Part shown: in pieces, positions 25,822-40,386 of the stretch
How the letters are laid out: every line of letters starts with the position of its first letter
Position numbering within the stretch: the stretch's first letter is position 1
From: Halothiobacillus neapolitanus c2
GTDB lineage: Bacteria > Pseudomonadota > Gammaproteobacteria > Halothiobacillales > Halothiobacillaceae
Assembly (NCBI RefSeq): GCF_000024765.1
Contig: NC_013422.1
Span: 1,507,501 to 1,571,500 of the forward strand
Direction: 5' to 3'
DNA: 64,000 nucleotides
Translations under genes and position numbers: made by a program
The notes under the pieces: model-generated
The model's database searches: none
What the model was told of the DNA's origin: nothing
The model's input: only the letters and a program-made list of their open reading frames with translations

Positions 25822-26259
25822 TCAGTCGCGAACTGTAAGTCGAGATCGCTGCTCATCCCACAGCGCCGGCGGATCGACCGCCAGATCGAACAGCGTGATG
25901 TGATTCGGCAATGCGTCGTCCAGGATGGCCGCCACGATGTCTGGCGCCAGCGTCGTCAGGTTGACCATGCGGCTGACGTAGCTGTTGTCGATGCCTTCCC
26001 GCGTGGCGATCTCCTTCAACGACTTCGCCTCTCCTGATTCCAGCATCGCCAGCCAGCGGTAGCCCCTGGCCAGCGCCAGTTGGATGGAGGTCGGTGCTAC
26101 GTCCCACGGTCTAACCGGCGCGGTTTCGCCGTTTGGCAAGGTGACCTGCTTGCGGCCGCTGCGGCGTTTGATCTGGATCGGCACGGACAAGGTCAGCCTG
26201 CCGTCGCTGGTCTGCAGGATGTCGGGCTCGCCGGTCTTCTGGATGCGGATGTCGCTCAT
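25822..26259 (-). CDS. Small helix-turn-helix protein paired with the serine recombinase
   Basis: 145-residue basic protein. Its first half is beta-rich (DGRLTLSVPIQIKRRSGRKQV); the second half has a ParB/KorB-like helix-turn-helix, SLKEIATREGIDNSYVSRMV, followed by LAPDIVAAILDD. Proteins of this type frequently follow large serine recombinase genes in phage-derived elements and may be their DNA-binding partners; that role is inference. The ATG at 26259 overlaps the recombinase TGA as ATGA. The open frame extends further upstream to 26844, but that part is antisense-frame shadow of the recombinase and has no plausible start. Confidence 0.7.
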   Translation of the reverse strand: MSDIRIQKTGEPDILQTSDGRLTLSVPIQIKRRSGRKQVTLPNGETAPVRPWDVAPTSIQLALARGYRWLAMLESGEAKSLKEIATREGIDNSYVSRMVNLTTLAPDIVAAILDDALPNHITLFDLAVDPPALWDEQRSRLTVRD

Positions 26260-27322
26260 GCCAGTGCTTCCACTTGTTGTTCGCCCGGCTCGGGGCGCAA
26301 CTCCAGCACCAGGCGTTCGATGCCGTTGGCGCGCAGCCGCACTTCGAGGTCGTTGGGCGACACGATCACCTTCTCGACCAGCAATTTCACGATCCGTGTC
26401 TGCTCGGCCGGGAAAAGTTGATCCCAAATCGCGTCGAGCCGGGTCATGGCCACGGTGATCTTGGCTTCGTCCAGGGTCGGATCGAGCTTGATCGCTTGCG
26501 GCAGCATTTCGCCGAGCAGATTCGGTGCACGTAGGATCGCACGCAGTTGATCGAGTACCACCGATTCGAGTTCTGCGGCCGGCAATCGCGGCAACCCCGA
26601 GGCGCCCGCGTGTTCCTTGGCGTCGCGCTGGGGCACGTAGTAACGGTAGCGCCGGCCATTCTTCTTGGTGGTGTGCCACGGCGACAGTGCGCGCCCGTCG
26701 TTGCCGACCACGATCCCCTTGAGCAGATAGGGAACCTTTGCCCGCGTCGTGTTGCCCCGCACTCGGCCATTCGTCTCCAGGATCGCGTGGACGCTGTCCC
26801 ACAATTCGCGGCTGATGATGGGCGGGTGTTCGGCCTGGCACCACTGGTCCTTGTGCCGCAACTCACCAAGGTAGGTTCGGTTGCTGAGGAGCTTGTAGAT
26901 GTGGCCCTTGTCGATCGGTCTGCCATCGCGGGTCTTGCCGTCCTGAGTGGTCCACGCCTTCGACGTTACGCCATCCAGCTTCAGCTCCTTGACCAAGGCA
27001 GTACTGGAGCCGAGTTCGACGAATCGCTGGAAGATGTGCCGGATCAGTTTGGCTTCGCGCTCGTTGGGCACCAACCGCCGGTTCTCGACGTCATAGCCCA
27101 GCGGCGGTACGCCGCCCATCCACATGCCCTTGCGCTTGCTGGCTGCTATCTTGTCGCGGATGCGCTCGCCGGTGACCTCGCGCTCGAACTGGGCGAAAGA
27201 CAGCAGGATGTTCAGCATCAGCCTGCCCATGGAGGTCGTCGTGTTGAACTGCTGAGTGACCGACACGAACGACACGCCGTAGCGCTCGAACACCTCGACC
27301 ATCTTGGAGAAGTCCGCCAGCC
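26256..27322 (-). pseudogene. Large serine recombinase, N-terminus deleted
   Basis: The remaining ~354 codons match a large serine recombinase/resolvase: the end of the catalytic domain (LADFSKMVEVFERYGVSFVSV, TTSMGRLMLNILLSFAQFERE), then the recombinase domain (GMWMGGVPPLGYDV, VPNEREAKLIRHIF), the zinc-ribbon region (here poor in cysteine) and a coiled-coil tail. The first 80-100 residues, including the nucleophilic serine, are missing. Upstream of the LADFSK codons the sequence no longer resembles a recombinase but contains a tmRNA T-arm-like piece. The protein cannot be catalytically active. Although the frame stays open to 27584, that extension is not recombinase sequence. Confidence 0.85.
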
Positions 27323-27364
27323 AAGCTCGAAGACCGAAGATTGCACGCCCAGTGCGGTTGGCTT

Positions 27365-27394
27365 GACTGGTTTCGGACGCGGGTTCAATTCCGC
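27365..27394 (+). repeat. Diverged tmRNA 3'-region remnant
   Basis: GACTGG, then CGGACGCGGGTTCAATTCC, resembles GACTGGCGGACGGGGGTTCAATTCC of the resident ssrA (22869-22893), with 3 extra bases and G/C changes. The T-loop GGTTCAATTCC is identical. It looks like the 3' part of another species' tmRNA left by an earlier integration, directly beside the truncated end of the recombinase gene. Confidence 0.45.
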
Positions 27395-27563
27395 AAACGG
27401 GAATCGAACTGGCGTCCTGTCTGATGCACTTGGCTGGTGACCTCGGACGGGCAGAACTGATAGGATTCTCAGCAGTAGGGGCTGGATTCCGCACCTTTCC
27501 GCAGGAGTTCGCGGCGGCTCTAAGGCGCTGAGTTACATAGGTTTGGCGCAGGGTTCCACCCCA

Positions 27564-27610
27564 CCACCAATAACAAAACCCCAACCGTTCTCGGTTGGGG
27601 TTTTTTCTTG
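27564..27610. repeat. Right attachment-site repeat (tmRNA 3' end copy)
   Basis: Perfect 47-bp copy of 22901-22947 including CCACCA and the complete ssrA terminator. It represents the original chromosomal 3' end of ssrA displaced by the island. Beyond it, 27611-27892 holds no recognisable gene. Confidence 0.85.
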
Positions 27611-30014: not shown

Positions 30015-30950
30015 TCAGTTATTAACACCGAATCGACGGAAATATCCCATCACCCGATCCGACAAACCGGCCAGCAATGGTTTATCCGACTTGGCAACCG
30101 CGTGACGTTGACGGGCTTCCGGCAGGGTCTGCAGAATCTTGTGATAATCGAGCGCCGACTGCATGTTCTTGACGAACGTGCCGACGTGTCCCGGTTTCGG
30201 GTGAAAACGGAATACCTGTCCCTGATTGATCAACTCGACCAGGAGTTCGTAATCACGCAATTGGGTTAATACGATGGTGACCAATTGGGGATGGGACTGT
30301 TTCAATGCCTTGATGGCGCCCACGTGGCTGGCTTGACCATCGAGCACATCGGCCACCAGTACACCAATGGCATGTGCACTTAGCAACTCCATGGCCTCGT
30401 CAAGATGGCGCGCCCAATACAGTGGATTACCCTGCGGCGTCGCACGTTTGACGAGTTCATAGGCAACAGGATCCTGATCGAGTAACAGGATGCCGGGCCG
30501 AGACAGTGGCTGCGCTGCCTCGTCGATCACCTGCCCACTATTGCGTCGTGCGGCGGCAGCGAAACTGAGCTCTGCCACCTGCGCGGCCGCTCGCACGTCC
30601 GCACGAATCTGTTCGACATCCCAAGGCTTCTGCAGGAACCGGAAAATCTCGCCTTCGTTGACCGAGCCGATGACCGCCGCCAGATCGGCATAACCTGTCA
30701 ACAGCAGGCGCATGGTGTTGGGCGACACTTCTCGAATGCCGCGCAGCACGTCAACACCGGCCATGATGGGCATGCGTTGATCGGAAATGACCACTGCGAC
30801 CGGTTGAGTCCGGGCAATTTCAATCGCATCGTGTCCGTTGTCGGTCGTCAACACATTGAATTCATTGCGAAACAACATCTTGAGCGAGCGGGTGATCCGA
30901 GCCTCGTCATCGACCAGCAGCAAGGTGGGTTTGGTATTCGACTCGTTCAT
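30015..30950 (-). CDS. Double-receiver response regulator without output domain
   Basis: 311-residue protein with two receiver domains. REC1 is canonical: LLLVDDEARI, phospho-acceptor Asp in VVISDQRMP, and Lys in FLQKPWD. REC2 (from ILLLDQDPVAYEL) keeps an Asp in VLVADVLDG and HPKPG near its end but is more diverged. No DNA-binding, GGDEF or phosphatase domain follows, so it may act as a phosphorelay link or scaffold. I start at 30950, behind GGAG. The sensor kinase gene ends 62 bp upstream, forming a two-component pair. Confidence 0.82.
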   Translation of the reverse strand: MNESNTKPTLLLVDDEARITRSLKMLFRNEFNVLTTDNGHDAIEIARTQPVAVVISDQRMPIMAGVDVLRGIREVSPNTMRLLLTGYADLAAVIGSVNEGEIFRFLQKPWDVEQIRADVRAAAQVAELSFAAAARRNSGQVIDEAAQPLSRPGILLLDQDPVAYELVKRATPQGNPLYWARHLDEAMELLSAHAIGVLVADVLDGQASHVGAIKALKQSHPQLVTIVLTQLRDYELLVELINQGQVFRFHPKPGHVGTFVKNMQSALDYHKILQTLPEARQRHAVAKSDKPLLAGLSDRVMGYFRRFGVNN

Positions 30951-31012
30951 TATTTCTGCTCCTTTCCGCGTTCTGGTCAACCGCACCGATTCACAAGGGT
31001 GAGGGAATTCAA

Positions 31013-32386
31013 TCAGTAGGTATTCTGTGTTTGCAGCACTTCAACGCTGTCCGCAACGTGCTTACCGCCGGTGCGCGAACTGGAATCCGTTGTCGCAGGT
31101 TGATTGGTCGATCGCTTGATTGGCAGGCTGATCTCGAAGCGCGTGCCAACACCAGGTTTGGTAGCCAAGCGGATATCACCGCCGTGATCCTTGATGATGC
31201 GATAGCTGATCGACAAACCGAGACCGGTTCCCTCGCCGACCTTCTTGGTGGTATAGAACGGTTCGAAAATGCGCGATACGTGTTCCGGCGGAATACCGCT
31301 GCCGTTATCTTCCACGCTGATGCAGACAAACTCGCCGCGGGTATAGGTTCGAATGAGCAATCGCCCTTTGTCGTGATTTATCGCTTGTGCCGAATTGGTC
31401 AGCAGATTCAATAAAACCTGATTAATTTGCGAGGGCGCGCAGGGCACGAGTGGTATCGGTTCGAAGCGTTTTTCGACCGTGACACGATTCTTCAGGTGGT
31501 GATGCCCGACCGTCAAAGCCGTTTCGATGTTGTCGATCAGATTGACCTGATCGGTTGCCGCCCGATCGACGCGCGCGAAATTTTTCAGGCTCTGGACAAT
31601 CTCGCTGATCTGCTTCAAACCAAAACGGGCATCGACAAACAATTCCGTCAAATCGGCCAGATCATTGACGGCATCAAACTCCTCGCGCATGGCGGCAATC
31701 GCCTGAATTTGCGCTTCCACATCGGTTTGCTCGGCAGCGGGGTTGAGCAGGTTTTCGAACAGACTGTCGTAGGCAGCGACCAATCCGTGAATTTGTCCCA
31801 GCATTTCTTCGGCCATCTGCACGTTGTTGCCAACATAACCGAGCGGTGTGTTGATCTCGTGCGCGACGCCCGCCACCATTTGGCCCAAGGCCGCCATCTT
31901 CTCGGACTGCACCAGGTGCGCCTGTGACGCCTTGATCTCCTGATTTGCCTGCGCCAATGCGTGATTGCGCTGATCCAGACGCTGCTCGACCAGTTTCAGC
32001 ACATCGGCGACAGAACCCAGCCCGGCGTAACTACCGTCGGCCTCGGTAAAGATGAAATCCTCGATGATCGGCGTGCGAATCTGTGCAGTAACGGTCGAAA
32101 TGACGGAACTGGTCGATTCGGCCAGCGAGACAATGACCGGCTGCGTGTTCATGAAGTACTGAATAGGACGTCGACCGTACAAATCGCGGGAGTACTTGTT
32201 GAGCAACAACTCCATCAGCGCATGGCGGCTGATCAAACCCACCGGTTGACGGTCTTCATCAACAACCGCCAGAGACAACATGCGATCGAAACCACCTTCC
32301 CCAAAGCGCTCCGTAACGGCATCGAGCGACATATCCACGGGCAATGGAGGAACCGCATCAAGCAGGGCACGCAGGGATGAAGACAT
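31013..32386 (-). CDS. Soluble sensor histidine kinase with CBS-like input domain
   Basis: 457 residues, no membrane segment. Residues of about 15-135 form a CBS-pair-like sensory domain (VVDEDRQPVGLISRHALME; YFMNTQPVIV). A coiled coil (135-165) leads to the dimerisation domain with His176 in GVAHEINTPLGYVGNN. The ATPase domain has N (LLNLLTNSAQAI), G1 (VEDNGSGIP), F (FEPFYTTK) and G2 (GEGTGLGLSISY) boxes. The input domain resembles that of the SiaA-like phosphatase at 37393. Its partner is the double-receiver protein downstream. Confidence 0.88.
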   Translation of the reverse strand: MSSSLRALLDAVPPLPVDMSLDAVTERFGEGGFDRMLSLAVVDEDRQPVGLISRHALMELLLNKYSRDLYGRRPIQYFMNTQPVIVSLAESTSSVISTVTAQIRTPIIEDFIFTEADGSYAGLGSVADVLKLVEQRLDQRNHALAQANQEIKASQAHLVQSEKMAALGQMVAGVAHEINTPLGYVGNNVQMAEEMLGQIHGLVAAYDSLFENLLNPAAEQTDVEAQIQAIAAMREEFDAVNDLADLTELFVDARFGLKQISEIVQSLKNFARVDRAATDQVNLIDNIETALTVGHHHLKNRVTVEKRFEPIPLVPCAPSQINQVLLNLLTNSAQAINHDKGRLLIRTYTRGEFVCISVEDNGSGIPPEHVSRIFEPFYTTKKVGEGTGLGLSISYRIIKDHGGDIRLATKPGVGTRFEISLPIKRSTNQPATTDSSSRTGGKHVADSVEVLQTQNTY

Positions 32387-32456
32387 CGCTCACTCTCAAT
32401 CAGATCAAGGAGCAAACACCCTAGCGATCAATTGTGACAACATTATGTTAACGGCC

Positions 32457-32714
32457 GGAACCTCTGATTGAGTCCCTCGTGAGCCGAGTTGCTGATCCAA
32501 AGGCCGCAAAACGAGGCAGAGGCCGAAGGTCGTAGTTTACGCTACGATGCCAAGGCCGATAACGAAGTGTTGCGGCTTTTGGGCAGCAACCCGCATGGGA
32601 CGGGCTTTTGAGGGCGATTTTACGCGAAGCAGGCGCAAGCTCGTTTCGCGCCGCGCCTTGCGACTCATCACTCAAAAGCCCGTCTCGGCCACGAAGGATT
32701 CAATCAGAGGTTCC
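32457..32714. mobile_element. MITE-like element, family B (about 258 bp)
   Basis: Terminal inverted repeats of about 25 bp: GGAACCTCTGATTGAGTCCC at the left and the complement of GGATTCAATCAGAGGTTCC at the right, with two internal differences. Inside lie a 14-bp perfect inverted repeat (GACGGGCTTTTGAG / CTCAAAAGCCCGTC) and an imperfect one around TGCTG...CAGCA. I see no convincing target duplication and no coding region. The right end runs into comEC. Only one copy is in the window. Confidence 0.65.
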
Positions 32715-35194
32715 CTAATACACCGCCAGACAAATGGCCATTGGCGGTCGCGGTAGGCGATAACCTGCCCGGATTTCACTTCGATCGCGCCCTGATCAGC
32801 GGTGTTGAACACTGGAATTTGTCGCTGCCGATAGCGTTGCAGCACCAAGGGATGCGGATGCCCGAAGGAGTTGAACTTACCGGCACTGATCACAGCCACT
32901 TCTGGCTGAACCGCAGCCAGGAATGGCGGCGAAGATGAGGTTTTCGAGCCATGATGCGGCACATAGAGCACATCTGATTTCAACGCAGTGCCACCTGAGT
33001 GCGCATCAATGAGCGCTTGCTCTGCCTCAGCTTCGATATCGCCGGTCAACAAGACGCTTCCGGCACGACTCTGGATGACAAGCACACAGGAACGATTGTT
33101 ATCGCTACGACTGTCCAGTGAAGCCTGATAGGTTGCAAAATCCACCCCATCCCACTGCCAATGCGCTCCATCACGACAAGATGTGCTACCGAAGCCCGGC
33201 AGCGGCTCCCCACTGATTACCGGAACATGAGGATAAACCGTCAGCACGCTGGACAATCCACCCATATGGTCGCGCGCATGGTGACTGATGACGATTTGAT
33301 TCAGCTCCGAGACATGCAGTGCGCGCAACGCAGGCACAACCGTTCGCTCGCCCGCGTCACTGCCACCGAATGCCGGCCCCGCGTCGTACAGCATCGCGTG
33401 GCGCGCGGTATGGATAACCACAGCCAACCCCTGCCCCACATCCAGAAACCAGATATCGGCCTCGCCATCCGGAATCGGTGCCGGTCGATAGAATACCGCG
33501 GGCAAACACAGCACGAGGCCAAGATATCGGGCAGGCCAGAATTTAGGCATCAACATCCAGGCCACACCAAGCGAGGCCAGCAACAGCGTCCATCCAGCGG
33601 GGGCGGCGATGTGGCTATCTGGCAGCGTCAACCGCAACCACTCAAGAAAGCCGAACAAGCCATGTGTCAGGACGTTGATCGGCCACATCAGGACTGCCGC
33701 AACCGAAGGCAACATACTGACGAACGCCATGACCAGCAGGGAAAGCGGCGTAATTACAAAAGTAATCACCGGCACAGCCAAGATATTGGCGGGTAAGGAC
33801 GACCAGGCCACACGGTCGAACAGCCACCAGACGATAGGCAGCAAGGCGAGCGTGATAATGATCTGCAGGCGGAATCCATCGCGCCAGAACGCGAGCGCGG
33901 GGCGGTACTGCAACCAGAGCAGCATGATCAACACCGCACCAAAGGAGAGCCAGAACCCCGCCGTGAGCGCATTGAACGGATCAAGCAAGAGCACACCCAC
34001 CAGAGCGATCAGCCAGAGATCGAGCAATCGCCACGACCGCCCCAGCAGCAAGCCCGCCAACAAAATCGTGATCATCAGTGCCGTGCGTTCGGTCGGTACA
34101 GACATCCCCGCCAGAAAGGCGTAGCCCCAAGCCGCAAAAACGGCCACCCCGGCGGCCACACGACGAGCGGGAAACCCTTCGCACCAGCGCGTGCGCGACC
34201 AAAGCCAGGCCGCGAGCCAAGCGAACAACCCGGAAACCATACCCACATGCAAACCCGAAATAGCCAGCAGATGATTCGTGCCAGTAGCCAGCAGCGTTTC
34301 CCAGTCGTTTTGACCCAGATAATCACTATCCCCGATGGTCAAACCCAGCAGTAAGCCTCGCCCTCGGTCCGGTGTGCCTTGTGATTGGGATATAGCCAGC
34401 AACTGCGCGCGCCAGTGCGAGCGAACCGATAACAGGTAGGCTGCAAATCCATCGCCTCTCTCGGCCAACAGTGTAGGCTTGCCATGAACCGATCCCGTTG
34501 CCGCGATACGCTGGGAAAACAACCAGCGCTCGTAGTCGAACCCGCCAGGGTTTGCGCTGCCATGAGGTGGTTTCAAGCGCAGATCAAATCGCCAGACCGC
34601 CCCACCGTGATACTCAACCTGTTCATTGGGCGGATAACGATGATAATCACCCACACGCAATCGCTGGCCGGTTGAATAAAATCGGCAAGCCGCATCGCTT
34701 TGGTTTCTATCAACTTGTACAACGCGCAACATCAACTGGGTCGCGTGCTTTGATGGACGCGGCAAGGCATCGATCATGGCCGTCACAGAGCAGGATACGG
34801 GCGCAAGCGATGACGGCGGCAACGACCGCACAAACGTACTGATGGCGGATAAAGACCACAACAAACCACTGAACACCGCTAAAGCAGGCACGGCAATGGT
34901 CCAGAAACGGGCAATAGTCGCCGATTGCTGTAAACGCAGAATCAAAAGAATCAACAAAACCAGAACCCAAAAGGCCACCAATGGGCGCAACAGGTCATCG
35001 GCCAACAGGTTGGCATGTAAAACTTTGGAGATGAGCGACGTCAGCCAGATCAGAGGCTTGGGCTGATCACTTGCCGCTTTCAATGGCGCCCAAGGCAGCA
35101 GCCAGGCACCCAGTGCGCCAACAGACCACGCCAGCAACCACAGTGAACTCAATCGTGTCGAGAAGTATCGATTTCGAACAAGCGTGCAACTCAT
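32672..35194 (-). CDS. comEC: DNA uptake channel ComEC/Rec2
   Basis: 840-residue inner membrane protein that carries transforming DNA into the cytoplasm. N-terminal TM helices and an OB-like domain are followed by the Competence domain (LLATGTNHLLAISGLHVGMVSG) and a C-terminal metallo-beta-lactamase-like domain (ISHHARDHMGGL; VLLTGDIEAEAEQ; YVPHHGSKTSS). The first metal motif reads SHHARDH in place of the usual SHxDxDH. The last 14 or so residues, after WRCI, are encoded by the terminal repeat of the MITE at 32457-32714, so the native C-terminus has been replaced. No other competence genes lie nearby. Confidence 0.9.
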   Translation of the reverse strand: MSCTLVRNRYFSTRLSSLWLLAWSVGALGAWLLPWAPLKAASDQPKPLIWLTSLISKVLHANLLADDLLRPLVAFWVLVLLILLILRLQQSATIARFWTIAVPALAVFSGLLWSLSAISTFVRSLPPSSLAPVSCSVTAMIDALPRPSKHATQLMLRVVQVDRNQSDAACRFYSTGQRLRVGDYHRYPPNEQVEYHGGAVWRFDLRLKPPHGSANPGGFDYERWLFSQRIAATGSVHGKPTLLAERGDGFAAYLLSVRSHWRAQLLAISQSQGTPDRGRGLLLGLTIGDSDYLGQNDWETLLATGTNHLLAISGLHVGMVSGLFAWLAAWLWSRTRWCEGFPARRVAAGVAVFAAWGYAFLAGMSVPTERTALMITILLAGLLLGRSWRLLDLWLIALVGVLLLDPFNALTAGFWLSFGAVLIMLLWLQYRPALAFWRDGFRLQIIITLALLPIVWWLFDRVAWSSLPANILAVPVITFVITPLSLLVMAFVSMLPSVAAVLMWPINVLTHGLFGFLEWLRLTLPDSHIAAPAGWTLLLASLGVAWMLMPKFWPARYLGLVLCLPAVFYRPAPIPDGEADIWFLDVGQGLAVVIHTARHAMLYDAGPAFGGSDAGERTVVPALRALHVSELNQIVISHHARDHMGGLSSVLTVYPHVPVISGEPLPGFGSTSCRDGAHWQWDGVDFATYQASLDSRSDNNRSCVLVIQSRAGSVLLTGDIEAEAEQALIDAHSGGTALKSDVLYVPHHGSKTSSSPPFLAAVQPEVAVISAGKFNSFGHPHPLVLQRYRQRQIPVFNTADQGAIEVKSGQVIAYRDRQWPFVWRCIREPLIESFVAETGF

Positions 35195-35251
35195 GGGGCA
35201 TATTCCAGCCGGAGGGCGCGTTTACATCGATTAGGCAGTAAGCGCAAAAGC

Positions 35252-36055
35252 CTAGCTTTTCAACCGGAAAGCCATGCCGCCGCTCGGCAGACGTTCCACA
35301 GTGAAACGGTCACTCAATTGCTGAGTAGACTCGGATGCACCCAGAATAAGCACACCCCAAGGCTGAAGAGAATTGGCAATATGCTCAATGATCTGCGCCT
35401 TGGTTTCACGTGCAAAATAAATCAACACGTTTCGACAGAAAACGATATCAAAACGCCCCAAGCCAACCGGCGGATCGAGCAGATTACCGACTTGAAAACG
35501 GACACGTCGCCGCACTTCCGGTTTGATTTTCCAACCGTGATCTACAACATCGAAAAATTGCTGTTTACGTGCCGCAGATAAGCCCCGCCCAAGCGACAAT
35601 TCATCGAAAATACCGGAGTTGGCCTGCTCCAATACTCGAGAAGACAAATCGGTACCGATAATTTCAACCGAAAATGGCGGTTTGATCTCGCTGACGAGCA
35701 TGCTGATCGAGTACGGCTCCTGCCCCGAAGAACAAGCCGCCGACCATATGCGAAGATTTTGCTTTTTTTTCGCCACCGCCTCAGGGAAAAAGACGTCACG
35801 CAACGCGGCGAAAGGATATTCATCCCGAAACCAGAGTGTTTCGTTGGTAGTCATTGCCTCGATGACCGCCTTGATCAGGGCAGGTTCGCGGCCATTGAGC
35901 AATCGCCCCATCAGTGCGTCAATGGACTCGATCTTCTGATCGCGCAACACGCGACTCAACCGGGTTTCCACCAGATACCGCTTATCAACGCCCAAAAGAA
36001 TGCCACTGCGCTTTTCGAGCAAGTCGCAAAACCTCTGGTATTGCTCGGCCTCCAT
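35252..36055 (-). CDS. cheR: Chemotaxis protein methyltransferase CheR
   Basis: 267-residue SAM-dependent methyltransferase that methylates glutamates of chemoreceptors. The N-terminal helical domain (residues about 1-70) binds receptor. MTTNETLWFRDEYPF and the SAM motif WSAACSSGQEPYSISML follow. RFDIVFCRNVLIYF and WGVLILGASES complete the fold. The gene starts 2 bp after the cheV stop, so the two are one operon. No receptors or cheA are in the window. Confidence 0.92.
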   Translation of the reverse strand: MEAEQYQRFCDLLEKRSGILLGVDKRYLVETRLSRVLRDQKIESIDALMGRLLNGREPALIKAVIEAMTTNETLWFRDEYPFAALRDVFFPEAVAKKKQNLRIWSAACSSGQEPYSISMLVSEIKPPFSVEIIGTDLSSRVLEQANSGIFDELSLGRGLSAARKQQFFDVVDHGWKIKPEVRRRVRFQVGNLLDPPVGLGRFDIVFCRNVLIYFARETKAQIIEHIANSLQPWGVLILGASESTQQLSDRFTVERLPSGGMAFRLKS

Positions 36056-36057
36056 CC

Positions 36058-36999
36058 CTATTTCGTCTCGACCAGATGTTGCGGTCGGTTACGGAGCGCC
36101 TCTGCGACGACCTTGGCCAGGTCGTCCGGGTGGAATTTGGCAATAAAACGGTCAGCACCGACGTTTTCGACCATGGCCTCGTTAAACACCCCACTCAACG
36201 ACGAGTGCAGGATGACATAAAGCGATTTCAGGCGAGGATCGCGGCGAATCTGGGTGGTGAGCGCATAGCCATCCATGATGGGCATCTCGATATCCGAGAT
36301 AACCAGAGCGACCCGGTCGAGCTGTTCGGGAGAATCGTCTGCCCAACGGCGCAAGGTATCAAACGCTTCCTTGCCATTGGTTGCCAGCACCGTTTCAAGC
36401 CCCATCTGCTTGAGCGTGTTGCGCACCTGATTGCGAGCAACCAGCGAATCATCGGCGACCAAGGCAATGCATTCTTTGGATGCCAAACCGCTGACTTGTT
36501 GCAATACATCGGCGGAAATTTCTTCGCGCGTACCGACCACTTTGGAGAAAATCTGCTCGACATCAATGATTTCAACGAGTGCTTTATCCACACGCGCCAC
36601 CGCGGTCAGGAAATTTGAGGTGTTCGTGCCGGTGGGCGGCGGCATGACTTCTTTCCAGGAAAGGTTGACGATGCGATCAACCGAATTGACCAGAAAGCCC
36701 TGAACCGCCCGGTTGTATTCCGTAATGATAACGAATGCCTCTTTCACATCTTCGGGGCTCATCCGCGGGCCGCCGATGGCATCGGACAAATCGATAATCG
36801 TAATGGTATGCCCCCGCACGTCCGCAATGCCACGCACCGATGAGGCCGCCTTGGGCACGTCGGTCAACTTGGGGCAGCGAATCACTTCGCGCACTTTAAA
36901 TACGTTGATCCCGAATCGCTGATCGTCAGCAAGGCCAAAAATCAACAACTCAAGTCGATTATGACCGGCAAGCTTGGTACGGGAATCAACCGATGACAT
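36058..36999 (-). CDS. cheV: Chemotaxis coupling protein CheV (CheW-REC)
   Basis: About 313 residues. The N-terminal CheW-like domain (LELLIFGLADDQRFGINVFKVREVIRCP...VRGHTITIIDLS) couples receptors to CheA. The C-terminal receiver (ALVADDSLVARNQV; phospho-acceptor Asp in LVISDIEMPIMDGY; Lys in IAKFHPDD) tunes coupling. The start is uncertain: ATG 36999, GTG 37014 and TTG 37026 are all in frame; none has an ideal SD, and the conserved region begins a few residues later. It is cotranscribed with cheR. Confidence 0.9.
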   Translation of the reverse strand: MSSVDSRTKLAGHNRLELLIFGLADDQRFGINVFKVREVIRCPKLTDVPKAASSVRGIADVRGHTITIIDLSDAIGGPRMSPEDVKEAFVIITEYNRAVQGFLVNSVDRIVNLSWKEVMPPPTGTNTSNFLTAVARVDKALVEIIDVEQIFSKVVGTREEISADVLQQVSGLASKECIALVADDSLVARNQVRNTLKQMGLETVLATNGKEAFDTLRRWADDSPEQLDRVALVISDIEMPIMDGYALTTQIRRDPRLKSLYVILHSSLSGVFNEAMVENVGADRFIAKFHPDDLAKVVAEALRNRPQHLVETK

Positions 37000-37026
37000 C
37001 ACATCTTTTTTCACGGTGATATTCAA

Positions 37027-37392
37027 CCTTGTTATGTAATTGGCGCAGTCTAGCGCTTTCCATCCACGATCACAGCGTTGTGCCGGACGACTCGAACGCT
37101 ATATCGGCCAAAAACGCATCTTCTTTAATTGGTAACCGTATTCGGCACAAAGCATACAGGCCACTCGATTCTGTTTTTCATAGCACAACCATGTATTCGA
37201 GGCATTCTCTCCCATATTGCCCTTTTCAATCCAGACGGAATTGCACTCGACATCATTTCTTGGTTGACGAGCGTCGGTTGTCAAAAAAATGTAACAACGA
37301 ACACGCATCATGAGTCAGTTATGGGCATCACGACCCATTGATTCTCGCGATCAATCCGAATATTGCCGTTATTTCTTTTGAGGCCTGCTGCC
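37027..37392. other. Divergent intergenic region cheV / sia operon
   Basis: 366 bp between divergent operons, so it should contain two promoters. I see a TTGACG at 37263 upstream of an A-run, possibly a -35 for the rightward operon, but no convincing -10 at the proper distance. No gene or clear repeat is present. Confidence 0.3.
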
Positions 37393-38604
37393 ATGTTGAG
37401 AGAGATCCGCTGCGCCGGTGACCTGGTGATTGAAGCGCGTGCCATTACACCGGACTTCAGAAATGAAGAGGTCTTGGCGTTGTTCGGCCAGCAGTCGAGC
37501 TTGACCCATCTCCCCGTGCTGATGACCGATGGTCGCCCCTTGGGTTTGATCAATCGGAACATCTTTCACAGCATGATGACCAAGCCCTACTATCCTGAAC
37601 TATATAGCCAGAAAAGCTGCATCACGTTTATGGATAAGGAGCCGTTGATCGTCGAAGCCAATCTGCGCATCGAACAGTTGACCGCACTGGCCGTGGAAGC
37701 GGGTAACAAAGTTTTTGCCGACGGATTCATCATCGTGCAGGACGGCAAATATCTGGGCATCGGTCAGGTACTCGACCTGATGCATGCCATGACCGAGTTG
37801 CAGGCACGACAACATCGTCAGTTGGTTGAAAGCATCGAATACGCCAGCGTGATTCAGCAATCACTGCTCAAGCCTTCGGAAATCGCGCTGGAACAAACTT
37901 TACCGGACAACCACTGGTTGATCTGGCAGCCGCGTGATGTGGTTGGCGGAGATATTTTCCATTTCAGTCAACGCGAAGACGGCTTTCTGGCCATCTTGTT
38001 CGATTGTACCGGGCACGGTGTACCGGGCGCATTCATGACCCTGATTGCCGAATCAGCACTTGAACAGGCGCTCAATCAGCTGGGTGATCGCAACCCTGCC
38101 GCGCTCATGGCAACAATCAACCAGCACATCAAACATGCGCTGAACCAGCACCAGGACGGCAACAGGGAAAACTCGGACGATGGTCTGGACGGCCTCATCC
38201 TCCGATACGAGCGCAGTAAACGCCAAATCACCTATGCCGGCGCGCACAGCGTTCTGTATTCCCTGAACATCGAAAACGACGCACCCATCACCTTACATAC
38301 CGGTGACCGAAAAGGAGTGGGCTACGCCAGCACGCCGCTCGATTTCAAATGGCATAACCACACCATCGCCATCGACGAACCCTCTCGCGTTTTCATGCTG
38401 ACCGATGGAGTGATCGACCAGATTGGCGGGCCGAGAAAAATTGCCTTCGGCAAAAAGCGACTCACACAGTTTCTAACCGAACAACGGCAAATCGAAATGC
38501 CACAGCAAAAACAGCGTTTCATAGAAACATTCAGTCACTATCAGGGCACGCAGACAAGACGAGATGATGTCACCCTGCTGGCGCTGAGTGTCACGCCGGC
38601 CTGA
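37393..38604 (+). CDS. SiaA-like PP2C-type phosphatase with CBS-like input domain
   Basis: 403-residue cytoplasmic serine phosphatase. Residues of about 10-130 are a CBS-like sensory domain (VLMTDGRPLGLINRNIF; CITFMDKEPLIVE). A linker helix (ELQARQHRQLVESIEYASVIQQSLL) leads to the SpoIIE/PP2C domain with metal motifs RDVVGGDIF (181-189), DCTGHGVPGA (204-213), FMLTDGVIDQIGG and TRRDDVTLL. In Pseudomonas SiaA, a membrane phosphatase, dephosphorylates SiaC; here a soluble sensor replaces the membrane input. I start at 37393 behind GAGG. First gene of the siaABCD-type operon. Confidence 0.85.
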   Translation: MLREIRCAGDLVIEARAITPDFRNEEVLALFGQQSSLTHLPVLMTDGRPLGLINRNIFHSMMTKPYYPELYSQKSCITFMDKEPLIVEANLRIEQLTALAVEAGNKVFADGFIIVQDGKYLGIGQVLDLMHAMTELQARQHRQLVESIEYASVIQQSLLKPSEIALEQTLPDNHWLIWQPRDVVGGDIFHFSQREDGFLAILFDCTGHGVPGAFMTLIAESALEQALNQLGDRNPAALMATINQHIKHALNQHQDGNRENSDDGLDGLILRYERSKRQITYAGAHSVLYSLNIENDAPITLHTGDRKGVGYASTPLDFKWHNHTIAIDEPSRVFMLTDGVIDQIGGPRKIAFGKKRLTQFLTEQRQIEMPQQKQRFIETFSHYQGTQTRRDDVTLLALSVTPA

Positions 38605-38675
38605 GTCCCAACACTGAACAGAATCACCCCTAACCGCCGCCGCATCAAATGCAGGAAGAAGCAGGAATACGCCTC

Positions 38676-39236
38676 ATGACTGAACACGACACACCGATTG
38701 CACCGCCCTGCTTTCCCGGGCTGGCGGAAGATCTTATCTTCTTTTACGCGGGTTATTTTTCTCAGAACATTATCAACGCCATCGGTGATGCCGTGCGTTT
38801 GCGCATGGAACAGTCGGAGGCATCGAGCAGCGTGCGGCGCAAGATTTTTTCTACCTTCATCGAGATGGCGCAGAACATCGTGCACTACTCGAGTGATGCC
38901 CTCACCCCGCCAGATCAGGCAACGCTGGAAATGCGTGCCGGTTCGGTGATGGTGACGCATGCCGACGGCCGGTTCTACATCCTCTGCGCCAACCCGGTCG
39001 ACGCCGAATTCGCAGAGCAACTCAAACCGCTGTTGGACCCTTTGCGGGTTATGACGACAGAGCAAATCAAAAATGCCTATCGGCAAACGCTGCGCAGTAG
39101 CGACAGTTCAGAAAACAGCAAAGGTTCGGGCCTGGGCTTTCTCACCATCGCCAAGGACAGCTCGGCTCCGCTTGAGTACGGCTTTACACCCGCTGCCCAT
39201 GGCATGTTGATGTTCACACTCAAGGCCACCATTTAA
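38676..39236 (+). CDS. SiaB-like protein kinase
   Basis: 186-residue protein of the SiaB family, GHKL-type kinases that phosphorylate the SiaC-like switch protein. Visible are FIEMAQNIVHYSSD (N-box-like), then SENSKGSGLGFLTIAKDS (G2-box-like). I chose the ATG at 38676, 9 nt after AGGA; the ATG at 38649 has no ribosome-binding site. It follows the phosphatase gene and precedes siaC, so kinase, phosphatase and substrate are encoded together as in the Pseudomonas system. Confidence 0.82.
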   Translation: MTEHDTPIAPPCFPGLAEDLIFFYAGYFSQNIINAIGDAVRLRMEQSEASSSVRRKIFSTFIEMAQNIVHYSSDALTPPDQATLEMRAGSVMVTHADGRFYILCANPVDAEFAEQLKPLLDPLRVMTTEQIKNAYRQTLRSSDSSENSKGSGLGFLTIAKDSSAPLEYGFTPAAHGMLMFTLKATI

Positions 39237-39262: not shown

Positions 39263-39646
39263 ATGGAAAAATTTTATCTCGCGGCGACCAACAACACCCC
39301 GGAGGTGGATTTTGATTTTCCGCAACGAAGGCTATCACTCAAGGGTGAGTCGTATCCAGAAAGCGCCGCTGCCTTTTACGGCGACATTCTGACGAAAACG
39401 AACGCGTTCCTAGATACGCTGGACCAAGAAAAGATCGACGTCAGTATTCAGCTTTTATACTTCAACAGTTCCAGCACAAAAATGTTGTTCAGCTTTTTCG
39501 AGATGCTGTACCAGGCAGCGGAGGCCGGCAATGCGGTGAGGCTGGATTGGTACCACGACGTGGACGATGAAACTATTCTGGAGTTCGGACTGGAACTGGC
39601 CGAGGACTTCCCTGCCATTGAATTCCACGCCCACGCCGTTGAATGA
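39263..39646 (+). CDS. SiaC-like switch protein (DUF1987)
   Basis: 127-residue DUF1987 protein. Landmarks are EVDFDFPQRRLSLKGESYPE, QLLYFNSSSTKMLFSFFEML and WYHDVDDETILEFGLELAED. The SSST segment corresponds to the region of the phosphorylated threonine in Pseudomonas SiaC. Unphosphorylated SiaC binds and activates the diguanylate cyclase SiaD; SiaB phosphorylation stops this. AGGA lies 9 nt before the ATG. It overlaps the cyclase gene (ATGA). Confidence 0.87.
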   Translation: MEKFYLAATNNTPEVDFDFPQRRLSLKGESYPESAAAFYGDILTKTNAFLDTLDQEKIDVSIQLLYFNSSSTKMLFSFFEMLYQAAEAGNAVRLDWYHDVDDETILEFGLELAEDFPAIEFHAHAVE

Positions 39647-40386
39647 TAATGACCACTCAAGACGCATACGCTCCGGACTTGTTTGAACGCGAAATAACGG
39701 TCCTGAACAAGGCGAAACAGGCTAAAGTTAATTTTTCGTCGCACGCCGATCACTCGGCATTATCGGAATTGATTGACGAATATGAACGCGTGATCCGCGA
39801 AATGCGTCGGGTCATCGCCCATTCGGACAGAACCGAGCGTGAACTCAATAATGCGAACCAGCGTTTGCGCGAACTGACCGAGGCGTTGACATTCCAGAAC
39901 CGTCACGATGGCTTAACAAGGTTGTTGAACCGCACGACGCTTATCAATGAGGCGGAACAACTTCTCAAAACGACCAAATCCGCTCTGATCATGATCGATA
40001 TCGATCACTTCAAGCAGATCAATGATCGCTACGGCCATCCCACGGGCGATAGAGTGCTCGTCGGATTGGCGGATACGCTGCGCTCGATAATACAGCCACC
40101 CGCGCTATGCGGACGTCTCGGCGGAGAAGAATTCGCCATCGTCTTACCCACGAATCAACTCGAAGAAGTCATCAGTCTGGCCGAGAAAATCAGCGAGGAG
40201 ATCAGAAATCTGCGTTGCGAAAGCGAACTCGGCCTGCGCATGACAGCCTCGCTCAGCATTACCTTGGCGAGACCCGGCGTGAACTTCGACACACTCTATC
40301 TTTGCGGCGACGATGCCCTGTACAGGGCCAAGCACGATGGTCGAAACCGGATCGAAGTCGTCCCCCATCCGCTCAACCCCACGTGA
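39643..40386 (+). CDS. SiaD-like diguanylate cyclase (GGEEF)
   Basis: 247-residue cytoplasmic cyclase producing c-di-GMP. An N-terminal helical coiled coil (ELIDEYERVIREMRRVIAH, TERELNNANQRLRELTEAL) is the likely SiaC contact. The GGDEF domain has HDGLTRLLNR, MIDIDHFKQINDRYGHPTGD and the active site GRLGGEEFAIVLP. The RxxD inhibitory site before GGEEF is absent, so product feedback is unlikely; control should come from SiaC. The start overlaps siaC by 4 bp. It should link the operon to biofilm or aggregation control. Confidence 0.87.
   Translation: MIMTTQDAYAPDLFEREITVLNKAKQAKVNFSSHADHSALSELIDEYERVIREMRRVIAHSDRTERELNNANQRLRELTEALTFQNRHDGLTRLLNRTTLINEAEQLLKTTKSALIMIDIDHFKQINDRYGHPTGDRVLVGLADTLRSIIQPPALCGRLGGEEFAIVLPTNQLEEVISLAEKISEEIRNLRCESELGLRMTASLSITLARPGVNFDTLYLCGDDALYRAKHDGRNRIEVVPHPLNPT

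Follow-up and report, generated by a model that had tools for sequence, protein, structure and literature searches.

Predicted tandem-CBS input modules of one family on a histidine kinase and a SiaA-type phosphatase of Halothiobacillus neapolitanus, and a CBS-fronted form of the Sia switch

The window analyzed here, a stretch of 64,000 nucleotides from Halothiobacillus neapolitanus c2 (positions 1507501–1571500 of a genome of 2,582,886 bases in a single contig), encodes two signalling proteins—a histidine kinase and a PP2C phosphatase of the SiaA type, referred to below as CBS-SiaA—whose N-termini are homologous tandem-CBS (Bateman) modules of one family with the same predicted fold. The phosphatase gene heads a siaABCD set, and comparison with other genomes indicates that this CBS-SiaABCD is a separate and stable lineage of the Sia switch, with a predicted cytosolic CBS input instead of HAMP. 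Taken as a whole, the best explanation is probably that cytosolic CBS input modules of one family gate the kinase and PP2C outputs.

An earlier note on this DNA had aligned a segment of the kinase with one of the phosphatase and had pointed to FMN and FMD motifs following them at equal distance. Both segments are present, with G50 of the kinase pairing with G51 of the phosphatase, and FMN and FMD both start 31 residues past the Q or R that opens each motif. BLASTP comparison of the whole proteins gives E=1e-10 with 35 of 151 positions identical, and hhalign comparison of the family alignments of the two modules (both small) gives a probability of 99.0 and E=2.8e-18 over 126 columns; these two values rule out chance similarity.

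Structure prediction and matching to the PDB gave related rather than unrelated folds for the two N-termini. The AlphaFold models have a mean per-residue confidence (pLDDT) of 87.0 for kinase residues 1–164 (36-row alignment) and 89.8 for the whole phosphatase (49 rows), and within the module strands and helices succeed one another in the same way in both models, which were compared at this level. Solved CBS pairs matched by the kinase module include 4gqy (E=8.7e-09), 3l31 (Z 14.8) and AcuB 9s4y (Z 14.7), and residues 6–141 of the phosphatase model match AcuB 9s4y with Z 15.8. A profile built from 18 modules also matches CBS chains in the PDB, the best at E=2.8e-17; single-sequence PDB searches with each N-terminus returned nothing significant, the phosphatase drawing two CBSX1 chains with E-values of 0.35 and 0.45. 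The best PDB match of the phosphatase PP2C domain is SiaA-PP2C itself (6k4e; Z 34.1, root-mean-square deviation 1.6, 246 residues aligned, 33% identity). In both models the helix past the last CBS strand is long and points to the output domain (residue ranges in Table 1); signalling helices that link sensory domains, CBS included, to kinases or PP2C are described in excerpts of PMC1592074.

The kinase is a predicted two-component histidine kinase, with a HATPase_c domain (97.9 bits in Pfam), a putative phospho-acceptor, His176, within a HisKA match of 25.1 bits that lies just below the cut-off of 26.9, and an adjoining double-receiver response regulator, as the earlier note had proposed when it tied the kinase to a double receiver. 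That note's description of the phosphatase as SiaA-like with a SiaC-linked cyclic di-GMP (c-di-GMP) output also agrees with what lies downstream, where the predicted content of the SiaBCD partner switch—genes for SiaB, SiaC and a GGDEF protein—follows in the order siaB-siaC-siaD. Thr72 of the SiaC protein is probably the counterpart of P. aeruginosa Thr68 (the T68 of excerpts of PMC7647112), a correspondence made by analogy. Alignments with most relatives begin at ATG 37393, which makes this the probable start of the phosphatase and the TTG at 37363 probably the wrong one.

A scan of named genomes, seeded with the patterns KSC[IL][AT]FMD and M[TA][KR]P[YF][YMV][PR]E[LI], found 398 relatives, and the best 80 were kept. 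All 80 loci have the CBS-PP2C gene with siaB and siaC, which rules out an arrangement peculiar to Halothiobacillus, the hosts including species of Ectothiorhodospira, Cupriavidus, Duganella, Herbaspirillum, Bordetella and Pseudomonas as well as Halothiobacillus. A stand-alone siaD is adjacent in 77 (the exceptions are L158, L162 and L193); a simpler count gave a SiaD-like match in 78 loci, from which L162 drops out, having no stand-alone siaD. Pattern seeding partly builds in conservation at positions 74–81 and 62–70 of those 80 loci. A further sample was drawn by profile, without the peptide patterns, and siaB and siaC accompany the CBS-PP2C gene in 20 of its 20 fetched loci, four of which have the gene order siaA-siaC-siaB.

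In a tree built from the PP2C domain only, 64 CBS-type rows (42 of the 80 loci and 22 of the profile-drawn sample) fall on one side of a branch with SH-aLRT support of 95, and 16 long-type rows with HAMP are on a separate branch with support of 100; L246 and L263 lie outside both groups. HAMP is found in 16 of the 18 long non-CBS SiaA-like proteins, 11 of which have a dCache match under the Pfam cut-off, and L263 is a long SiaA-like protein with neither HAMP nor HisKA/receiver. The window phosphatase has no HAMP or Cache match in Pfam at E≤1. Two side observations concern this tree. The protein at L246:357-2168 is SiaA-like in its PP2C domain, has HisKA and a receiver in front and is encoded upstream of siaB and siaC, and so looks like a third type of Sia input. 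Loci L240–L243 hold a divergent CBS-like PP2C group from genomes of 1.8–2.2 Mb, which forms its own clade and has SiaC nearby in three of four cases and SiaB in two.

Work on SiaABCD has dealt with a P. aeruginosa switch that takes its input at the membrane, through the two transmembrane segments and HAMP of SiaA (excerpts of PMC7647112). Set against that protein, the description of the window system in the earlier note as a different wiring is apt, but the wiring is not specific to the organism, being present in 17 Pseudomonas genomes. A second, long SiaA occurs in one of these (G342) and was not found in the other 16 at E≤1e-40; Pseudomonas thus holds both wirings, the CBS-type and the HAMP-type. 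A narrow search of open-licence literature found no description of the CBS-fronted cytosolic form, and conclusions drawn from the membrane-input Sia system need not transfer to it.

The two forms differ also in their cyclases. The RxxD motif for product inhibition is found in none of 85 CBS-type SiaD proteins (0/77 and 0/8 in the two sets) versus 17 of 17 long-type ones, 16 of which are HAMP-type; four of the eight from the order sample described below have KxxD, a conservative change. In the window SiaD the RxxD primary I-site is absent from the sequence before GGEEF. Because the split between the two PP2C groups is deep, the I-site may have been lost in one old event in one lineage, and not in 85 independent ones. 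The difference yields a concrete prediction about feedback, namely that CBS-type Sia systems work without product feedback at the level of the cyclase.

The module family is predicted to serve at least three outputs: PP2C phosphatases, histidine kinases and EAL-CBS-GGDEF proteins, the last of which presumably correspond to CDD cd04598. At E≤0.001 the window genome has two copies, those of the kinase and the phosphatase; five other Halothiobacillus genomes have a copy of EAL-CBS-GGDEF type, with the domains confirmed by Pfam for one (L028). The module is present in 43 of 274 genomes of the class at E≤1e-6, and at E≤1e-8 in 95 of the 250 genomes of the order sample. This sample represents the order to which G311 belongs, a Cupriavidus genome that holds locus L128, and we label that order Burkholderiales. 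Among 50 CBS-SiaA genomes, examined for 50 of the best 80 loci, 44 have at least one further copy. A CBS-kinase adjoins a double receiver in all eight gammaproteobacterial loci that have the window type of kinase in an uncut frame, and so do all four CBS-kinases met in the Burkholderiales sample. The kinase/regulator pair appears as a cassette with its own history, at a distance of 5 to 13 kb from CBS-SiaABCD in Halothiobacillus. As a side observation, L108:3087-5156 encodes a PP2C protein of 690 amino acids whose CBS module, very divergent, falls with CBS-GGDEF proteins and not with CBS-SiaA.

In the mechanism that we propose, the last CBS helix would run on as the long helix to HisKA/HATPase in the kinase or to PP2C in the phosphatase. 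CBS domains usually bind small molecules, and a ligand of this sort in the cleft, for which a purine nucleotide or a metabolite resembling one is likeliest, would shift this helix and so set the activity of the output. In the phosphatase branch the dephosphorylation of phosphorylated SiaC would be altered, and through it the binding of SiaC to SiaD and c-di-GMP synthesis, as in P. aeruginosa; in the kinase branch the flow of phosphoryl groups to the double receiver would change. The data themselves give homology, predicted fold, operon content, clade structure and spread; that a ligand exerts control and in which direction, that the proteins dimerise, and that events after SiaA follow the Pseudomonas mechanism is what we infer. 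Given the small size and apparent solubility of the CBS module, the molecule gating CBS-linked c-di-GMP proteins is directly testable on isolated domains.

Several observations weigh against a gating module of this kind or against its place in a Sia switch. The Pfam CBS model (PF00571, gathering threshold 24 bits) gives 26.1 bits for the kinase and 20.7 for the phosphatase, the latter below the cut-off. Three window proteins fall under their NCBIfam equivalog cut-offs: SiaA scores 205.4 bits on NF038263 (cut-off 700), matching over its PP2C part only, as compared with 999.6 for the HAMP-type protein of L262, and SiaC and SiaD score 79.7 and 152.5 against cut-offs of 150 and 290; three CBS-type proteins score 190–236 on the SiaA model. 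The nucleotide motif of CBS domains is G-h-x-[ST]-x-x-[DN], and in this form it is complete in the first CBS repeat of 0 of 84 SiaA and 0 of 19 kinase modules, and in the second repeat of 8 of 84 and 5 of 19. An attempt to name the ligand from this motif failed, the motif being too degenerate. No double receiver is seen beside L111, where the kinase frame is cut short, and beside L101 and L112, which have another type of kinase. No siaD was found within about 3 kb downstream in 13 of 21 CBS-SiaA loci of the order sample (L198–L202, L204–L206, L208, L210, L212, L213 and L245; the 22nd locus, L244, is cut by a contig end and excluded), and c-di-GMP is therefore not always the obvious output; in such loci SiaC may have other targets.

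One alternative gives the phosphatase a different partner, with CBS-SiaA and EAL-CBS-GGDEF proteins forming a co-ordinated pair in which one ligand sets both synthesis by SiaD and breakdown by EAL, the kinase copy in Halothiobacillus being incidental. In the order sample, EAL-CBS-GGDEF modules occur in 17 of 23 genomes with CBS-SiaA versus 67 of 227 others (Fisher p=4e-5, a statistic that ignores kinship and genome content), or in 16 of 22 when the centre genome is left out (p=9e-5, with the same limit). Architectures here were sorted by frame length: all 20 long frames fetched are EAL-CBS-GGDEF (13 of the 17 in CBS-SiaA genomes, and seven others), as are the short, contig-cut L238 and L239, which are counted among the 67, and G397, with a short frame, was classed by frame length only. 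Four genomes with divergent CBS (G591, G398, G348 and G521) were counted as being without CBS-SiaA, and a partial match, G487, was left out. Gene neighbourhoods point the same way in Ectothiorhodospira, where an EAL-CBS-GGDEF gene flanks CBS-SiaA in seven of seven loci. In L121, L122 and L126 it lies immediately upstream and points the same way (the frames of L121 overlapping by 4 bp when the first start is taken); in L120, L123, L124 and L125 it is on the other strand, 1.7–4.3 kb past the end of siaA. At L162:7921-14124 the genes for CBS-SiaA, SiaB and SiaC are followed by an EAL-CBS-GGDEF gene in the usual place of siaD, and a second such gene lies divergently upstream. Yet most of the order sample shows no linkage between the two genes, 6 of its 23 CBS-SiaA genomes are without EAL-CBS-GGDEF, and none was found in the window genome at E≤0.001. 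We regard this pairing as possible, though tentative.

It was further suggested in the earlier note that kinase and phosphatase may read the same signal, so that one ligand would drive both outputs in the cell. The shared family and fold favor this, as do the presence of just two copies in the window genome at E≤0.001 and the residues G51, R55 and G122 (SiaA numbering), which do not vary among the 146 modules compared or in another 22 modules of SiaA. Kinase and SiaA modules are moreover 4.7–12.8 kb apart in all seven Halothiobacillus genomes that have both, and for that reason a functional link is conceivable; G001 has neither module, G004 has SiaA and no kinase, and G009 has the kinase and no SiaA. 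Against it stands the module tree, which was built from few columns, includes 48 of the 85 distinct PP2C-linked modules and has a bootstrap that is not fully settled: all 19 kinase modules form one clade (support 96/94) and 47 of the 48 PP2C-linked modules another (100/99), with 7 label changes by output as compared with a mean of 50.7 for shuffled labels. L109 (classed as "other") and L110 (under the length limit) were left out of this tree; L108, a long branch grouping with the GGDEF-linked modules, was kept in it and dropped from the conservation set. A tree constrained to unite the kinase and SiaA modules of Halothiobacillus is worse by 51.95 log units and is rejected by the approximately unbiased (AU) test (p-AU 0.004), and tree and test together rule out that the module was recently duplicated locally from one gene to the other.

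Conserved positions differ as well. Position 111 is Gly in 84 of 84 SiaA modules, and in 22 of 22 from the profile-drawn set, versus Asp in 19 of 19 kinase modules; position 110 is Asp in 84 of 84 and 18 of 22 SiaA modules, and mostly Glu in kinases. The loops with these positions, we presume from other CBS structures, border the ligand cleft, and different ligands, or a different use of one ligand, therefore seem somewhat likelier for the two kinds of module, although this is not a strong reading. SiaA residues K82, G104 and K106, which like D110 and G111 fall outside the seeding patterns, are each found in 84 of 84 modules of the pattern-seeded set and in 13, 21 and 17 of 22 in the profile-drawn set; since K82 and K106 are not universal there, the argument from a difference in the pocket is weaker. 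The kinase lies within 10 kb of CBS-SiaA in only 3 of 80 loci, and in the stretches fetched from other genomes the kinase cassette comes without CBS-SiaA. With output-specific clades and differing conserved positions, the suggestion of a common signal has fared poorly, and a single ligand for both proteins is doubtful.

CBS modules can also act purely as dimerisation or docking units, a possibility that counts against ligand gating, and the module might be such a unit for dimerisation or partner docking, without a physiological ligand, its conservation reflecting constraints at an interface. The poorly kept nucleotide motif fits this, as does the long connecting helix in the AlphaFold models, which is of the kind seen in dimeric outputs. 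M80, P84, G111 and G122, however, are strongly conserved in loops that we take to border the cleft, and nucleotide-bound AcuB, MgtE and CBSX2 are among the solved folds that come closest; we think a module without ligand unlikely, and prefer one that gates its output. More improbable still is a scheme that has feedback shifted from the cyclase, with the SiaD I-site lost, to the phosphatase, the CBS pair of SiaA (shared with EAL-CBS-GGDEF proteins and kinases) reading a ligand related to purines or cyclic dinucleotides and setting c-di-GMP synthesis and breakdown together.

The features of the window are collected in Table 1. The genes between the kinase and siaA run in the direction opposite to siaABCD, and one of them is presumably comEC-like, to judge by its sequence. 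Elsewhere in the window, the open frame at 26256-27584 (minus strand) resembles a serine recombinase by eye, which hints at a mobile element close to the signalling genes.

Table 1. Predicted features of the signalling region, in window positions.
Feature	Position	Strand	Basis
Histidine kinase, whole, from ATG 32386	31013-32386	-	
Tandem CBS (Bateman) module of the kinase, residues ~3-137	31976..32380	-	Pfam CBS (first repeat), AlphaFold, PDB matches
Long helix from second CBS repeat to kinase dimerisation helix, residues 126-163	31898..32011	-	Predicted structure
HisKA (His176) and HATPase_c of the kinase	31115..31888	-	Pfam
Double-receiver response regulator, 26 nucleotides downstream of the kinase	30015..30986	-	Pfam Response_reg, two stretches
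Intervening genes: comEC-like (presumed), cheR, cheV	32672..37026	-	Pfam (CheR; CheW and receiver for CheV)
CBS-SiaA, SiaA-type PP2C phosphatase	37393..38604	+	Pfam SpoIIE 72.6 bits, AlphaFold, PDB match 6k4e
Tandem CBS module of CBS-SiaA, residues ~8-141	37414..37815	+	BLASTP, hhalign, AlphaFold, AcuB 9s4y match
44-residue helix between CBS module and PP2C, residues 126-169	37768..37899	+	Predicted structure
SiaB-family kinase	38649..39236	+	NCBIfam SiaB_fam_kinase 202.4 bits, cut-off 85
SiaC, SSSTK motif with Thr72	39263..39646	+	Pfam SiaC 133.2 bits, cut-off 24.5
SiaD-like diguanylate cyclase with GGEEF and without the RxxD I-site	39643..40386	+	Pfam GGDEF 128 bits

Among known systems, SiaABCD of P. 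aeruginosa (excerpts of PMC7647112, PMC8457831 and PMC12834913) is like the window system in its PP2C domain, SiaB, the threonine of the SiaC SSSTK motif and a SiaD-like cyclase, and has the same gene order, siaA-siaB-siaC-siaD. It differs in the input, which is a membrane input with HAMP where the window SiaA has a CBS pair, and in SiaD, which in P. aeruginosa has the RxxD primary I-site and in the window is without RxxD. Nucleotide-binding CBS pairs (AcuB 9s4y, MgtE and CBSX2 4gqy) are alike in fold to both window modules, with 13–23% identity among the matches listed, and differ from the kinase and SiaA modules in that the ribose-phosphate motif of the latter is mostly incomplete. Named proteins of the EAL-CBS-GGDEF architecture are Bordetella DdpB (excerpts of PMC12805831) and Cupriavidus RMET_RS24295 (excerpts of PMC6629876), which we compare by architecture only. 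In such proteins the CBS pair sits between EAL and GGDEF on a single chain, whereas in the window proteins it is N-terminal to PP2C or the kinase; the module in relatives with this architecture is of the same family.

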